This document shows positions 14,838 through 36,428 of a DNA stretch of 37,512 bases, piece after piece; within the stretch, counting starts at the first letter, position 1, and every line of letters begins with the position of its first letter. The position numbers and the translations under genes were made by a program. The stretch comes from a virus, in the IMG/VR virus record IMGVR_UViG_3300048912_000210, positions 1 through 37,512 of that record, one strand, 5' to 3'. The notes under the pieces are model-generated. The model saw only the letters and a list, made by a program, of their open reading frames with translations, ran no database searches and was not told the DNA's origin.

Positions 14838-14890
14838 GGTCTGATGGTAACGACGTGTGCAACCGGGTGGCGGTGGTGCGCACGCAGGTA

Positions 14891-14919
14891 GGGCCCCGAC
14901 CGGGTGGCGGTCGGGGCCC
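14891..14919 (-). terminator. Hairpin terminator after the WYL unit
   Basis: A perfect 11-base-pair stem GGGCCCCGACC / GGTCGGGGCCC with a 7-base loop, lying 20 bases after the stop of the gene at 14939-15319. Like most actinobacterial terminators it has no clear U-run. It separates the WYL unit from the late operon. Confidence 0.75.
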
Positions 14920-14938
14920 TCTGCTGTGCGGGGTGCAG

Positions 14939-15319
14939 TCAGTCTTTGGCGAAGTTGAGCGCGAACGCGGGCGGCTCCTTCACCACCACGGCGACCGGGG
15001 TCCACTCCAACTCGTCGATGTTGTCGACGCGATACACGTACCTGTACGCCTCGGGGGCGAGGTAGAGGCCGAGGCCGTCCTCGGTCCAGACGGCGAGTGC
15101 CACGGCCTTGAGGCCCGCCGGTGCCTGCGGCGAGAGGTGCGTGGAGGAGCGGGCCCAGAGGTAGCCGCTGGTGTCTTGCGCTACGACGGCGTTGATCTGC
15201 CCCGTGGCCCCGGCGCTGAACCAGCCCCAACTGCCAGCGTGGGCGGGGACGGCGGAGAGGGAGGGCGGGCACGGGTATCCGGGGAGGTCCATGGCGCGTG
15301 CCTGCTTTCGGTCGGTCAT
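14939..15319 (-). CDS. Hypothetical protein downstream of the WYL gene
   Basis: 126 residues from ATG 15319, chosen because AGGA lies 8 bases upstream; the ATG at 15328 has AGG directly against it, which is too close. It begins MTDRKQARAMDLPGYPCPPS and has a strand-rich centre (YLWARSSTHLSP, AVALAVWTEDGLGLYLAPEA, YRYVYRVDNIDELEWTPVAV). It is co-transcribed with the WYL gene 26 bases upstream and ends before a strong terminator. No family is recognised. Confidence 0.68.
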   Translation of the reverse strand: MTDRKQARAMDLPGYPCPPSLSAVPAHAGSWGWFSAGATGQINAVVAQDTSGYLWARSSTHLSPQAPAGLKAVALAVWTEDGLGLYLAPEAYRYVYRVDNIDELEWTPVAVVVKEPPAFALNFAKD

Positions 15320-15345
15320 GCGGTCCATCCTGTCGTGTCGGCGGG

Positions 15346-15791: not shown

Positions 15792-15859
15792 TATGCCTAG
15801 TAGGTTAGGCCTAATCCGTGAGGCGTGTCAAGTAGACTAGGCCTACTCGATTAGGCATA
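15792..15859. promoter_or_regulatory. Mirror-symmetric array of four TAGGC(C/A)TA operator boxes
   Basis: Boxes lie at 15792-15799 (TATGCCTA, the reverse of TAGGCATA), 15806-15813 (TAGGCCTA), 15838-15845 (TAGGCCTA) and 15852-15859 (TAGGCATA). Centres are 14, 32 and 14 bases apart, and the whole arrangement is symmetric about 15825.5, midway between two divergent promoters. Boxes 2 and 3 overlap promoter elements. This looks like the operator of a switch controlling both operons at once. Confidence 0.75.
15802..15831 (-). promoter_or_regulatory. Promoter for the WYL unit
   Basis: On the minus strand a perfect -35 TTGACA (15831 down to 15826) is followed after 18 bases by TAACCT (15807 down to 15802), a TAnnnT-type -10. 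The ATG at 15762 lies about 40 bases further on with its own ribosome site. The -10 overlaps an operator box. Confidence 0.6.
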
Positions 15860-15861
15860 CT
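15833..15861 (+). promoter_or_regulatory. Promoter for the HTH/GIY-YIG operon, probably leaderless
   Basis: TAGACT (15833-15838), 17 bases, then CATACT (15856-15861). The ATG at 15868 follows after 6 bases, so transcription would start at or next to the start codon. Two operator boxes overlap these elements. Assignment is by eye. Confidence 0.5.
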
Positions 15862-15867
15862 GGGGGC

Positions 15868-16056
15868 ATGGTCACCCGAGACGACGTCACCAAGATCCGA
15901 CAGGCCTACGACGAAGCGATCGCCGAAGCCGAGCAGCGGCGCGCCAAGGGCCTCGCCGAAGCCGCCGACCACCTGCCGCAGAAAGAGATCATCGAAGCCA
16001 CCGGGTACAGCCGAGAGACCGTCAGGCGCCTGATCGCGGAGGGGCGCGCCCTATGA
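15868..16056 (+). CDS. Small HTH regulator
   Basis: 62 residues. An N-terminal helix (MVTRDDVTKIRQAYDEAIAE) is followed by a helix-turn-helix, PQKEIIEATGYSRETVRRLI, at about 38-57. It is the first gene of a plus-strand operon and its ATG is only 6 bases after a -10 element, so it may be translated from a leaderless message. Being next to the four-box operator, it is the leading candidate for the protein that binds those boxes. It overlaps the next gene by ATGA. Confidence 0.78.
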   Translation: MVTRDDVTKIRQAYDEAIAEAEQRRAKGLAEAADHLPQKEIIEATGYSRETVRRLIAEGRAL

Positions 16057-16550
16057 CCCGGACTGCGCTGTACCGGGCCTGCGCGGCAGACGACTCGCTG
16101 CTCTACGTCGGCGTCACCAACGACACGAAGGCGCGCTGGGAACAGCACGCCAAGGACAAGCCATGGTGGCCGCTGGTCGATTACGTGGACTACCGCTGGT
16201 TCTCCACCCGCCCCGAGGCGGAGTTGGCCGAGCAGTTCACCATCGCGCGGGAGTGCCCGCCTCACAATCGGAACATGCCGCCGTGGCGCGCGCCGATGCC
16301 AACCGAGCTGGTCGACACATGGCGGGAGACGTTCGACAGCGTGGCGAAGCTGGTCTTCAGCGCGCTCGCTGGTGGTGCCAGCATCGAGGCTGTGGCCGAG
16401 GCCGCCGAGTGGCACCCGCGCTACCTCGTCCGCCTCGGGCGGCAGCGCAACATCCCGTGGGCGATGAACTACACAGGCCAGTACGACGACATGCCCGCCG
16501 AGGGGTACGTGTGGGAGCGCCCGGTGAGCAGCGAGGGGAACAACGCATGA
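16053..16550 (+). CDS. GIY-YIG domain protein
   Basis: 165 residues. The N-terminal region TALYRACAADDSLLYVGVTN and TKARWEQHAKDKPWWPLVDYV has the GIY-YIG pattern: YR...LYVGVT, Arg at about 29, His at 33, and Glu in RPEAELAEQF. Residues 100-150 add a helical segment resembling an HTH (GGASIEAVAEAAEWHPRYLV). Stand-alone GIY-YIG proteins of this size occur in actinobacterial mobile elements, probably as nucleases. It is coupled to the small HTH gene upstream (ATGA overlap). Confidence 0.75.
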   Translation: MTRTALYRACAADDSLLYVGVTNDTKARWEQHAKDKPWWPLVDYVDYRWFSTRPEAELAEQFTIARECPPHNRNMPPWRAPMPTELVDTWRETFDSVAKLVFSALAGGASIEAVAEAAEWHPRYLVRLGRQRNIPWAMNYTGQYDDMPAEGYVWERPVSSEGNNA

Positions 16551-16879
16551 GCGAGACCGTGCCCGCGCCCGGGACCACCCGCTACCTCTGCCCTCTCGAA
16601 TGCGGCTGGCACCACGACGTCCCCCCGCCCAGCGCCGACCGGGTAGTTCAGCTCGGCTCTGCTGCCGACCTCACTGGGCTACCGCCGGGCGAGGCGATCA
16701 GCGCGATGGCAACGCAGGCGTACCTTCGGGAGGCCGAGCTGACGGAGCGGGCGCTGCGCGAGCACCTGGCCACGCACACCACGGAGCAGTTCGTACGGAC
16801 GATCCAGGGGCTCCGGGCGGAGGTTGCGCAACTGCGCGGCGCGGGTCTGGTGCGCCCGGGTGAGGAGCCCACCACATGA
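16547..16879 (+). CDS. Hypothetical protein with Cys/His N terminus and helical tail
   Basis: 110 residues starting MSETVPAPGTTRYLCPLECG, ATG 16547 overlapping the upstream stop. Cys15, Cys19, His22 and His23, followed by a later H-x3-H (HLATH), could bind zinc. Residues 60-105 form an amphipathic helix (AYLREAELTERALREHLATH, then TIQGLRAEVAQLRG) likely to self-associate. Function is unknown; it is the third gene of the HTH/GIY-YIG operon. Confidence 0.68.
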   Translation: MSETVPAPGTTRYLCPLECGWHHDVPPPSADRVVQLGSAADLTGLPPGEAISAMATQAYLREAELTERALREHLATHTTEQFVRTIQGLRAEVAQLRGAGLVRPGEEPTT

Positions 16880-17118
16880 ACGCACGCCTCGTCGAGACGT
16901 TGCCAGTCCGGGAGATCGCCGCACACCCCGAGACCATCAAGGCCGTTGGTCTAGACAGGTTCGCCCTGCGGGACGAACTACTGATGATCAGGTGGGGAAT
17001 CGCCAGTGGGGTCCCGCTCTATGAGGACCCCTCCCTGCCGATCGGCGAGATCCATGGGCGTCCTCGCTCAGATGCCGATCTGGTCCGGCGGCCGATGACG
17101 ATCAGCAAGGGCAAGTAG
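16876..17118 (+). CDS. Hypothetical protein, last gene of the plus operon
   Basis: 80 residues starting MNARLVETLPVREIAAHPET, ATG 16876 in an ATGA overlap with the preceding gene. It is mixed in charge, with a helical N-terminal half and a basic C terminus (RPRSDADLVRRPMTISKGK). Nothing recognisable is seen. A shared hairpin follows 18 bases after the stop. Confidence 0.62.
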   Translation: MNARLVETLPVREIAAHPETIKAVGLDRFALRDELLMIRWGIASGVPLYEDPSLPIGEIHGRPRSDADLVRRPMTISKGK

Positions 17119-17136: not shown

Positions 17137-17164
17137 GGCCCCGCCCCATCCCGGGAGCGGGGCC
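17137..17164. terminator. Bidirectional terminator between convergent units
   Basis: An 8-base-pair stem GGCCCCGC / GCGGGGCC with a 12-base loop, between the plus operon ending at 17118 and the minus-strand lipoprotein gene ending at 17180. It can serve both. Confidence 0.65.
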
Positions 17165-27644: not shown

Positions 27645-28414
27645 TACTGCTCCTGGTTGAGGGAGTTGGCGACGTCGCGCAGGGCGTCGCTGATCGTGTT
27701 GAGGCTCGTCGCCCACCAGCGGCGGGCCTCTTCCGTCGTCTGGGCCGAGGGCAGGTCCATGTCCACGGCGAGTCGAGTGACGGATTCCAGGGCTCGGACG
27801 ATTTCGGGAGCCCGGTGGTGGGTCTGAGCCCGGTTGCGGATGAACCGGTCGTCGCCGCGCAGACGGTCAAGGCGCTCTGCGATGCGGACGAAGTCGTGGG
27901 CGGCACTGCCGAACTCCTCGGGCAGCGGGCGCCGCTTGGGCTTCGAGGGCTCGGGCCGGTCGGCCGGCTCGTCGACGATCTCGGCGTCGACGACCTCATC
28001 CGCGCCGGACTGGTCCCTGAAGCTCTCGTTGTATGTCTCGCGGACGGCTGCGGCGGTCGGGTGTCCGCCAGTGCGGTCGAGGGTCTCGTGCCACACTTCC
28101 GTGCGCGCTACCTCGGGGATCTTGCCGAGTTCCCGGGCTTGGGCCTCGTTGGGCAGTTCCACATTTGTGGAATCGGATGCCGCCTCGATCGACCGGACGA
28201 CCCGGGCCTGATCGAGCAGTTGGTACGCCCGGGACTGCGACATGTTGAACTCGGCCGTCGCATAGTCACGCCAGGACTCGTATCCGAGAGCGGCCCATGC
28301 CTCGCCTTCGTGGGCACGCAGAAGGAGGGCGTAGGTGCGCTCTTGAGACTGCTGGATCTCGTCGGTCAGAGCGCGCGCTTCTCCCGCCGTGAGGCGGTGC
28401 GCGAGGGTTGTCAC
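27644..28414 (-). CDS. HTH protein, ParB/KorB-like DNA-binding
   Basis: 256 residues, GTG start at 28414 (GTGA overlap, AAGGAGC upstream). The N-terminal helical domain (TAGEARALTDEIQQSQERTY) continues into WRDYATAEFNMSQSRAYQLL, DQARVVRSI, a helix-turn-helix of the kind in KorB/ParB-type regulators. The middle is acidic and Pro-rich (ADEVVDAEIVDEPADRPEPS). The C terminus is helical with RRWWATSLNTISDALRDV. It is paired with the ParB-like gene below. Confidence 0.7.
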   Translation of the reverse strand: MTTLAHRLTAGEARALTDEIQQSQERTYALLLRAHEGEAWAALGYESWRDYATAEFNMSQSRAYQLLDQARVVRSIEAASDSTNVELPNEAQARELGKIPEVARTEVWHETLDRTGGHPTAAAVRETYNESFRDQSGADEVVDAEIVDEPADRPEPSKPKRRPLPEEFGSAAHDFVRIAERLDRLRGDDRFIRNRAQTHHRAPEIVRALESVTRLAVDMDLPSAQTTEEARRWWATSLNTISDALRDVANSLNQEQ

Positions 28415-28953
28415 TTTTGCTCCTTGCTGTTGCAGGGGTCGCTACCGATGGGCATGTTCGGAAGCACGAGATGGAGGTCGGCGCCGAAGACTTCGCGGAC
28501 CGTGGTCGTTTCGGGGTGGCCGAAGTGCCGGATGATGTCCATGAATGTCTCGGCCTGCCGAAGGATCTGGTCGGCCTTCCGCCTTTGGACCCGTGCCCTG
28601 TGGGCCACGAGTTCCAGGTCGGCAAGCCTCAGTTCCTCCCACGCCACTTCGCGGCCGTTGAAGGGCGGGGCGAGGCGCTCGATCAACTGACCTTCGAGGC
28701 GGAACGCTTGGGCCCGGGATGCGCAGCAGATCCAGCGGAGTTCCGTGGCGCGCGGGTACCAGACCTTGCGCTCGTGCTCGCTGGCGCGACGCTGGAGGTC
28801 GCCGGTGCTTCCGACGTACAGGGGCTGGCCGTCGCCATCGGTGAACCAATAGGCCACGGATTCGCCGGTACCGGGCCAGTTGTCCTGCTGAGAATCGGAG
28901 AACGGAAGGCTTCGGGCGTGCTCGGTCGGAGCGGGGATCTGTGATTCCTGCAT
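28411..28953 (-). CDS. GIY-YIG domain protein
   Basis: 180 residues, ATG 28953. The core ESVAYWFTDGDGQPLYVGST, DLQRRASEHERKVWY, and later QAFRLEGQLIERLAPPFNGR fits GIY-YIG nuclease-like domains: Y-W, YVGST, Arg at about 59, His at 63 and Glu at about 93. The C-terminal part (VAHRARVQRRKADQILRQAE) is a basic helix. A -10 element TATGAT ends 6 bases before the ATG, so the message may be leaderless. It heads the minus unit with the HTH and ParB-like genes. Confidence 0.76.
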   Translation of the reverse strand: MQESQIPAPTEHARSLPFSDSQQDNWPGTGESVAYWFTDGDGQPLYVGSTGDLQRRASEHERKVWYPRATELRWICCASRAQAFRLEGQLIERLAPPFNGREVAWEELRLADLELVAHRARVQRRKADQILRQAETFMDIIRHFGHPETTTVREVFGADLHLVLPNMPIGSDPCNSKEQK

Positions 28954-29022: not shown

Positions 29023-29229
29023 ATGGCGACCACTCAGACCGAGCACCGGGCGAAGATCGCCGAGGCCCGTAACGTCCTCGGCGAGGTGATCGCGCGCACC
29101 CGTTTCGCTGGCGAGCCGACGATCCTGATCAACCGCGGCAAGGAGGCGGCTGTCCTCGTCTCGTACGATTTCTACGAGCGCGCCTGCGAAGCGCTGGGCA
29201 TCGAACGCGTTCCCGCTCCCGAGTCCTGA
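29023..29229 (+). CDS. Phd/YefM-family antitoxin, orphan
   Basis: 68 residues from ATG 29023, starting MATTQTEHRAKIAEARNVLG. The pattern ARNVLGEVIARTRFAGEPTI, LINRGKEAAVLVSYDFYERA is typical of Phd/YefM antitoxins, which bind their own operator and neutralise a partner toxin (Doc, RelE or YoeB type). No toxin gene lies next to it: downstream is a terminator and then a convergent gene. It may control itself, silence a host toxin, or be a remnant. The ATG is 6 bases after a -10, so it may be leaderless. Confidence 0.82.
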   Translation: MATTQTEHRAKIAEARNVLGEVIARTRFAGEPTILINRGKEAAVLVSYDFYERACEALGIERVPAPES

Positions 29230-35908: not shown

Positions 35909-36096
35909 GACGTGGCGCCCTTCGTGGGTGCGGTGAGGATGAGGAGGAGGAACCCGGCGGTCAGCGGCAGTTGCCGCACCCAGCGGGGAAGCAGGTGCTC
36001 GGCACCCGCCCACCGCAGGGCCGCGGGGAACGTGACCGCGAACGCGACGGCGGCGAGGGCGATGCAGGCGAGGACGTCGCCACGGGACTCGTGCAT
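35905..36096 (-). CDS. Small membrane protein
   Basis: 63 residues, ATG 36096. It starts MHESRGDVLACIALAAVAFA and has two spans (VLACIALAAVAFAVTFPAAL and LPLTAGFLLLILTAP) joined by a basic loop. Function is unknown; it is coupled to the XRE gene upstream. Confidence 0.66.
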   Translation of the reverse strand: MHESRGDVLACIALAAVAFAVTFPAALRWAGAEHLLPRWVRQLPLTAGFLLLILTAPTKGATS

Positions 36097-36428
36097 CACT
36101 GGGCACCGCCCAACTCGGCCTCGACGAGGCTGGAGATCTGCTGAAGCAGCGAGGTGCGGCGGGCCAGGTCGCGAGACGTGAAGCTCTGCGAGTCGTCCGG
36201 CTTCAGCCCGAGCGCGACATCGAGCGTCGCGCCGAACAGACCGGCGAAGGCGACCGCTTCGTCGAGACGGACCGGCCGCTCGCCGCGCTCGATCTTCGCG
36301 ACGGTGGTCTGCTGAAAGACGGTGAACCCCTGCGCCTTCAGAGCGTCGGCGACCTTCTGCTGAGACAGGCCAGCAGCGGTACGGGTGCTCTTGAGCCACG
36401 CGGTGAAGACTTGGTTGGTGTCAGCCAT
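36096..36428 (-). CDS. XRE-family HTH regulator
   Basis: 110 residues, ATG 36428. It starts MADTNQVFTAWLKSTRTAAG and has a clear XRE HTH: LSQQKVADALKAQGFTVFQQ, TTVAKIERGERPVRLDEAVA. The C-terminal helix (SRDLARRTSLLQQISSLVEA) may mediate dimerisation. Together with the next XRE gene upstream it forms a regulator pair at the head of the recombination operon. Confidence 0.82.
   Translation of the reverse strand: MADTNQVFTAWLKSTRTAAGLSQQKVADALKAQGFTVFQQTTVAKIERGERPVRLDEAVAFAGLFGATLDVALGLKPDDSQSFTSRDLARRTSLLQQISSLVEAELGGAQ

Follow-up and report, generated by a model that had tools for sequence, protein, structure and literature searches.

The box array between the WYL-domain gene and the divergent HTH-led operon of this virus is quite probably the cognate operator of the 62-residue HTH protein. 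The operon that it would serve is best read as an accessory one of temperate Streptomyces phages, autorepressed and exchangeable. In the loci that we compared, the boxes and the HTH gene travelled together, and they did so independently of WYL. Other WYL loci carried regulators of other classes at the same place, each with its own repeats, and the operator and rightward operon were replaceable as a block.

Box array and predicted promoters

The window that we analysed is a virus record of 37,512 bases (G000). A preliminary description had placed four boxes in a mirror-symmetric operator between a WYL gene and an operon of HTH and GIY-YIG genes, and on recheck their positions, centre spacings (14, 32 and 14 bases) and symmetry about 15825.5 were exact (Table 1). 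The array lies within the 105-nt gap between the leftward WYL-domain gene and the rightward operon. The pattern TAKGCMTA occurred four times in the window against 0.09 expected, a count reached in none of 100 shuffles; when the 105-nt intergenic region was itself shuffled 2000 times with its dinucleotides preserved, the mean was 0.03 boxes and the maximum two. A search for boxes beyond the array, which the preliminary description had proposed, found TAKGCMTA in the array only across the 37,512 bases.

Table 1. Positions of boxes, dyads, predicted promoters, genes and hairpins in the window
Feature	Position	Strand	Remarks
Strong hairpin between gene after WYL and TerS-like gene	14890..14920	-	-37.3 kcal/mol, z -6.2
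Gene after WYL, no assigned function	14939..15319	-	Pfam-searched as 14939-15328
WYL-domain protein, 138 residues	15346..15762	-	PF13280, E 1.8e-5; Shine-Dalgarno GAGGGGG at 15775-15769
Box 1, TATGCCTA	15792..15799		TATGCC retained in L037-L041 and L146
Dyad GCCTA-N6-TAGGC	15795..15810, centre 15802.5		
Predicted WYL promoter	15802..15831	-	-35 TTGACA 15831-15826, 18-nt spacer, -10 TAACCT 15807-15802
Box 2, TAGGCCTA	15806..15813		Adjoins -10 of predicted WYL promoter
Dyad GCCTA-N6-GAGGC	15809..15824, centre 15816.5		Next copy 32 bp away
Fifth box, GAGGCGTG	15820..15827, centre 15823.5		From comparison with relatives; AGGCATG in close relatives
Predicted HTH promoter	15833..15861	+	-35 TAGACT 15833-15838, 17-nt spacer, -10 CATACT 15856-15861
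Box 3, TAGGCCTA	15838..15845		From sequence and aligned promoters
Dyad GCCTA-N6-TAGGC	15841..15856, centre 15848.5		
Box 4, TAGGCATA	15852..15859		Overlaps -10 of predicted HTH promoter
HTH regulator, 62 residues, likely box binder	15868..16056	+	Long N-terminal helix 4-33; HTH helices 38-45, 49-61
GIY-YIG nuclease-like, operon gene 2	16053..16550	+	PF01541, E 6.8e-5, just above cut-off; PHROG endonuclease 1.6e-14
Operon gene 3, no assigned function	16547..16879	+	C-terminal tail VRPGEEPTT, also on cargo of other loci
Operon gene 4, no assigned function	16876..17118	+	
GC-rich hairpin, convergent end of rightward operon	17137..17164		-27.0 (+) and -28.3 (-) kcal/mol, z about -3

The mirror symmetry held for these four boxes, but a degenerate fifth box had been overlooked, and it breaks the symmetry. 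Self-complementary positions make up 44 of the 68 positions of the array and the boxes account for 32 of them, so the symmetry is confined to the boxes. Aligned promoters of close relatives have five boxes spaced 14, 14, 18 and 14 bases apart. The unit TAGGCCTA-N6-GAGGCAT is directly repeated 32 bp apart, with one copy for each divergent promoter, plus one extra box. Mirror symmetry as a conserved design was rejected, since relatives keep the fifth box and the direct 32-bp repeat. Read as half-sites, the boxes form dyads of the type GCCTA-N6-(T/G)AGGC with half-sites 11 bp apart, the separation expected for an HTH dimer.

The spacing of 32 bp (about three turns), to which attention had been drawn previously, was kept as GCC-N28-GGC in 12 of 13 aligned promoters, a figure inflated because several of the 13 had been found through that very pattern; GCC-N10-GGC was present in nine of 13. 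A 3-bp insertion in L041 makes the spacing 35 bp instead of 32. More distant TAGGCCTA loci (L044, L048, L052, L055, L067 and L120) keep the inner pair, and their outer boxes are weak or altered. Of two further distant loci, L059 has TAGGCCCA boxes with spacings of 32 and 14, and L062 has TAGGCCA boxes with spacings of 33 and 15. We also considered and rejected an RNA hairpin: the array folds at -33.3 kcal/mol (z -2.85), but it takes in both promoters, and most of it falls beyond the two predicted transcripts.

The perfect minus-strand TTGACA reported earlier is present. Divergent promoters inside the array were supported by comparison among loci, but a generic scan for sigma-70 promoters, set to require at least 9 of 12 matches, detected none in the array region, and the two predictions therefore rest on comparison. 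In 43 of 49 distinct loci, a -10-like hexamer began at position -12 or -13 relative to the regulator start (29 + 14), where about 1.5 would be expected per position; our choice of start had rewarded such a hexamer, and removing this bonus left 40 of 49. RNA would therefore start about at the ATG, and the regulator promoter is probably leaderless, as are known genes in actinobacteria. A WYL promoter-like element was found in 26 of the 49 distinct loci, mostly ending 29-41 nt upstream of the WYL ATG, so that space remains for a Shine-Dalgarno sequence.

The HTH gene, its operon and its boxes

AlphaFold modelled the HTH protein with a pLDDT of 95.5 as a long N-terminal helix plus an HTH, and the helix would be suited to dimerisation. 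The HTH_23 match in Pfam scored 22.3 bits, under the cut-off of 24.6. PHROG 575, a Cox-like excisionase and repressor family, was weakly similar (E 0.0023), and a fold search listed Fis among its weak matches. PDB sequence and fold searches returned no significant relative of the protein, and tblastn at E 0.01 gave zero matches in 50,697 phage records and 72,556 plasmid records.

The HTH/GIY-YIG operon is present as previously described, but it comprises four ATGA-coupled ORFs rather than two. Leftward past the WYL gene come a gene without assigned function, a hairpin and then TerS-, TerL- and portal-like genes, names that we read from gene order and sequences. Neither tabulated hairpin has a U-tract, so both are only putative terminators. 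Elsewhere in the window we labelled by eye a second GIY-YIG-like ORF away from the array (28411-28857, minus strand; MAYWFTDGDGQPLYVGSTGDLQRR...), a solitary ORF resembling a Phd/YefM antitoxin and oriented against the ORFs around it (29023-29229, plus strand) and a Cro/C1-type HTH-like ORF (36096-36428, minus strand), a candidate true lysogeny repressor.

We scanned viral contigs for TAGGCCTA-N24-TAGGCCTA using DNA only and no protein. The scan returned 16 stretches. In 13 of them, a distance of 24-44 nt separates the array centre from the start of an HTH homologue (E <= 6e-21). L046 makes a 14th: the data edge truncates it, and its DNA matches L044. The remaining two (L043 and L051) are unrelated. 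A WYL gene stood opposite in five of the 14 scan loci (L036, L042, L049, L053 and L056). Genes kept without the boxes had been named as the case that would speak against the operator. The WYL gene is indeed kept without these boxes, but all 14 HTH-homologue loci have TAGGCC-type boxes upstream; these 14 HTH-profile loci include L042, L048, L052, L055 and L067, which share their contigs with L057, L058, L061, L060 and L063, respectively. The composite site occurred in two of 392 Streptomyces genomes, each time adjoining this HTH gene. The boxes thus follow the HTH gene across loci, and this comparison supports the earlier choice of the 62-residue protein as the likely binder.

In L037 and L151, the unit of HTH gene and boxes faces a cysteine-rich gene (SWIM-like by eye) and not a WYL gene, with a TerS homologue still downstream. 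Positions 1-200 of L051 hold tandem TAGGCCTAGACACC-type repeats that are unrelated to the HTH operator.

A DNA-only scan for a second operator class returned 27 stretches, with the cognate regulator nearby in 16 and a WYL gene as well in ten of these 16. The other 11 were mostly chance-like, and two of them (L154 and L167) resemble the class without a regulator call. Scanning for GTATATACAC-N20-40-GTATATACAC returned 29 stretches, although the real sites of the class differ from the pattern used.

Regulators and operators opposite the WYL gene

A WYL profile identified 80 viral loci, of which 62 could be parsed, that is, the match reached the WYL start and upstream DNA was available. Dropping L066 and L114, which had no credible divergent regulator, and collapsing duplicates left 49 distinct loci. 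Opposite the WYL gene, these loci encode 14 clusters of mostly small regulator proteins; the clusters reflect similarity and do not imply separate folds. Several are HTH clusters, which differ from one another in recognition helix and boxes; several are RHH-like, one is Phd-like (PF02604, E 6.7e-8), one is HTH_23/MerR-like, and there are others. The operators of other classes include TTGGCCAA and TGTATATACA. The label RHH-like is a reading of the sequences, because the AlphaFold model of one such protein was poor (pLDDT 67.5, no strand). Pfam gave weak support for the L122 type and none for four others searched, and blastn with part of one RHH-like regulator matched no phage record. In L079, the WYL gene faces a 160-residue regulator whose N-terminal domain is a Phd/YefM antitoxin domain, and the promoter contains AAGGT-type repeats.

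Operator similarity followed the regulator when WYL was controlled (partial Spearman 0.286; largest of 999 permutations 0.118) and did not follow WYL when the regulator was controlled (partial Spearman -0.019, p 0.70), with shared ancestry partly controlled in both comparisons. Mean operator similarity was 0.321 for 74 pairs with similar regulators versus 0.017 for 43 pairs with similar WYL and unrelated regulators. Among 23 pairs whose WYL DNA was at least 90% identical, a set that leaves identical phages uncounted because exact duplicates had been removed beforehand, the regulators were unrelated in 19, similar in three and intermediate in one.

Once the classes had been fixed, sequenced genomes were scanned with a profile, which found eight loci, all in Streptomyces, versus zero loci with a single WYL protein. 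In all seven readable loci, as judged by eye, regulator and operator were matched in class as they are in the viral loci: TAGGCCTA for L142 and L146, the TATGCCTA class of L113 for L143, TTGGCC for L144, TGTATATACA for L145, TGTGGGTACACA for L147 and GCGCAA for L148. The eighth locus, L149, was left out of this count, and L142 is not independent because it is the apparent isolate counterpart of L071/L038.

Block replacement was visible between L087 and L089, which come from different metagenomes. The two are 99.5% identical over 1328 columns that include the WYL gene, and this identity ends 16 nt ahead of the WYL ATG. The middle parts (1079 and 630 bp) have no blastn match to each other, and beyond them identity is 96.4% over 2365 columns. 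Both promoters and the operator fall inside the replaced block, as do the regulator (RHH-like versus HTH) and the small genes after it; in L087 the block holds an XRE-type gene (PF13560, E 2.1e-8).

At the regulator end, 48 junctions were readable, and in 43 of them the stop codon and the following start codon overlap (ATGA/GTGA). A Shine-Dalgarno sequence lies within the regulator tail in 36 of 48, and a tail motif such as PVSSEEKTA is common to regulators of different types in 22 of 48. A boundary in the regulator tail is thus common, not general, and we read the tail as a preferred, not obligatory, site of exchange. An ungapped breakpoint walk upstream of the WYL gene was uninformative (median 0).

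Proposed circuit, alternatives and related systems

We propose that the HTH protein would dimerise by its long N-terminal helix and bind the GCCTA-N6-(T/G)AGGC dyads, two of them about three helical turns apart with one over each promoter. It would repress two promoters: its own, predicted to be leaderless, from which the GIY-YIG accessory operon is driven, and that of WYL on the other side. We infer repression rather than activation from the operator position only. When naked phage DNA enters a cell, the two operons would be expressed in a burst and then shut off as the regulator accumulates, and in a lysogen both would stay low. Such negative feedback, which has no second DNA-binding partner, would give a burst followed by shut-off and not bistability. 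A joint swap of regulator and operator would keep the circuit working and alter its specificity, so that the phage might escape a resident regulator. Since the same WYL protein faces unrelated regulators, a dedicated protein partnership between WYL and regulator is unlikely.

A wider reading can be offered tentatively, at somewhat less than even chances. In a lineage of temperate Streptomyces phages, the locus may be a fixed docking site, bounded by translation-start sequences, that exchanges whole cassettes of regulator, operator and cargo whose regulators have unrelated folds. The wiring of the circuit would persist through a wholesale change of its specificity. There would be at least 14 potentially orthogonal classes, and swaps driven by the regulators of resident prophages would create fold-independent immunity groups.

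Alternatively, the locus might be an immunity region proper, with the regulator as the main lysogeny repressor, the structural operon held off at the WYL promoter, superinfection immunity as the outcome and swaps that create immunity groups. We regard this as possible but rather unlikely. The WYL gene or an alternative partner does lie upstream of TerS-TerL-portal in most loci, but in the window a strong hairpin stands between TerS and the two genes formed by WYL and its neighbour. A temperate lifestyle would agree with loci inside Streptomyces genomes and with integration genes in related records: a tyrosine integrase in ten of 29, one of which (G027) is a chance pattern match, and a serine recombinase in five of 28, which gives 14 of the 28 relevant records with G027 removed (9 + 5), in a set of virus records that may be fragments. 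Differing classes also occur in one metagenome (L067 and L073 in 3300047447; L107 and L109 in 3300046660), as immunity groups would. Yet the regulator is very small for such a role, the Cro/C1-like ORF at 36096-36428 could itself be the lysogeny repressor, and the cargo of some cassettes, such as that of L087, includes a further XRE gene.

The HTH protein might also be an activator or a DNA-bending, excisionase-like factor, as its weak resemblance to PHROG 575 and to Fis would allow. This is improbable: the boxes lie on or right beside the two predicted -10 elements and the region where WYL starts, a placement typical of repression, and the window ORFs that were read by eye include no apparent integrase gene beside the locus. 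Binding of the boxes by a host protein or by WYL, and not by the adjacent HTH protein, is very improbable, although WYL proteins can act in transcription control (PMC10693628). Box changes track the regulator, not WYL. Moreover, the palindromic GCCTA-N6-TAGGC, read on both strands, occurred once in the whole 10.3-Mb genome of Streptomyces sp. BK340, at the homologous locus; the reversed control pattern occurred seven times per strand. Such a single site is unlike a host regulon, and we rejected that explanation of the boxes.

The bistable switch of the preliminary description, in which WYL and HTH products would each control the other's promoter, accords with the one operator array common to the divergent genes but is hardly credible: Pfam matched WYL at residues 12-87 of 138 with no further match and no recognisable DNA-binding domain, the association between operator and WYL vanishes given the regulator, near-identical WYL (19 of the 23 pairs above) faces unrelated regulators and operators that it could hardly match in every case, and the HTH gene and its boxes also face other genes. 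The WYL protein thus lacks any recognisable joined DNA-binding domain such as a WYL transcription factor has, and the two DNA-binding products in mutual repression that make up a double-negative toggle were not found.

The preferred reading, an autorepressed and exchangeable operon, has relatives among known systems. Lambdoid phages exchange immunity genes between conserved flanks, and regulator and cognate operator were likewise swapped as a unit between conserved flanks here. In the lambdoid immunity regions (cI-cro of lambda, 434 and 21), repressor and operator also change jointly, which alters specificity; lambda/434 heteroimmunity is described in PMC6550527. By contrast, the regulators exchanged here are of different types (HTH, Phd-like and RHH-like) and not homologues; there is no cI/cro pair, and one regulator would preside over two small operons.

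Aca proteins offer another parallel. They are small phage DNA-binding proteins that autorepress an anti-CRISPR operon through inverted repeats in its promoter, a role filled by several distantly related HTH families (PMC9410906). In the window, too, the phage encodes a small HTH protein, and conserved repeats lie within the predicted promoter of its gene. However, the regulator gene here comes first in its operon, is divergent from a conserved gene and does not follow an acr gene; the cargo of these loci consists of GIY-YIG, endonuclease VII, XRE and genes without assigned function, and the regulators are not only HTH proteins. The repressors of cluster A mycobacteriophages diversify together with their sites (PMC6550527), and these phages have scattered stoperators (PMC9283540). 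The window differs, with TAKGCMTA confined to the array and no genome-scattered sites.

Streptomyces phage ZL12 (GQ919031) has a WYL gene divergent from a regulator (pZL12.31 and pZL12.30c) with GCAATAC-type repeats between them. Its regulator is homologous to that of L123; the class differs from that of the window, and so do the surrounding genes. In the open-access PMC literature, no paper apparently describes this locus. Exchange of repressor with operator and small autorepressors are already known, and what appears new, provisionally, is the presence of unrelated regulator types at one fixed site.

If this holds, phages would renew repressor-operator specificity by a one-step swap of unrelated regulators and not only by co-evolution within one family, which would bear on the origin of new immunity specificities. 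For Streptomyces genetics, the locus also provides a set of small repressor-operator pairs that are probably orthogonal. It likewise supplies a natural series in which an HTH recognition code could be read, with TGYSRETVRR and TAGGCCTA or TGWTREYLRR and TTGGCC(A/T)A as examples.

The locus can further serve as a landmark for locating phage accessory genes. In L105, L082, L068 and others, the operon past the regulator is an array of small genes, mostly without assigned function. Recurring C-terminal tails of operon genes (LVRPGEEPTT and RPVSSEEKTA) contain the ribosome site of the next gene, and a recurrent small operon protein carries TLYLDAEHF.
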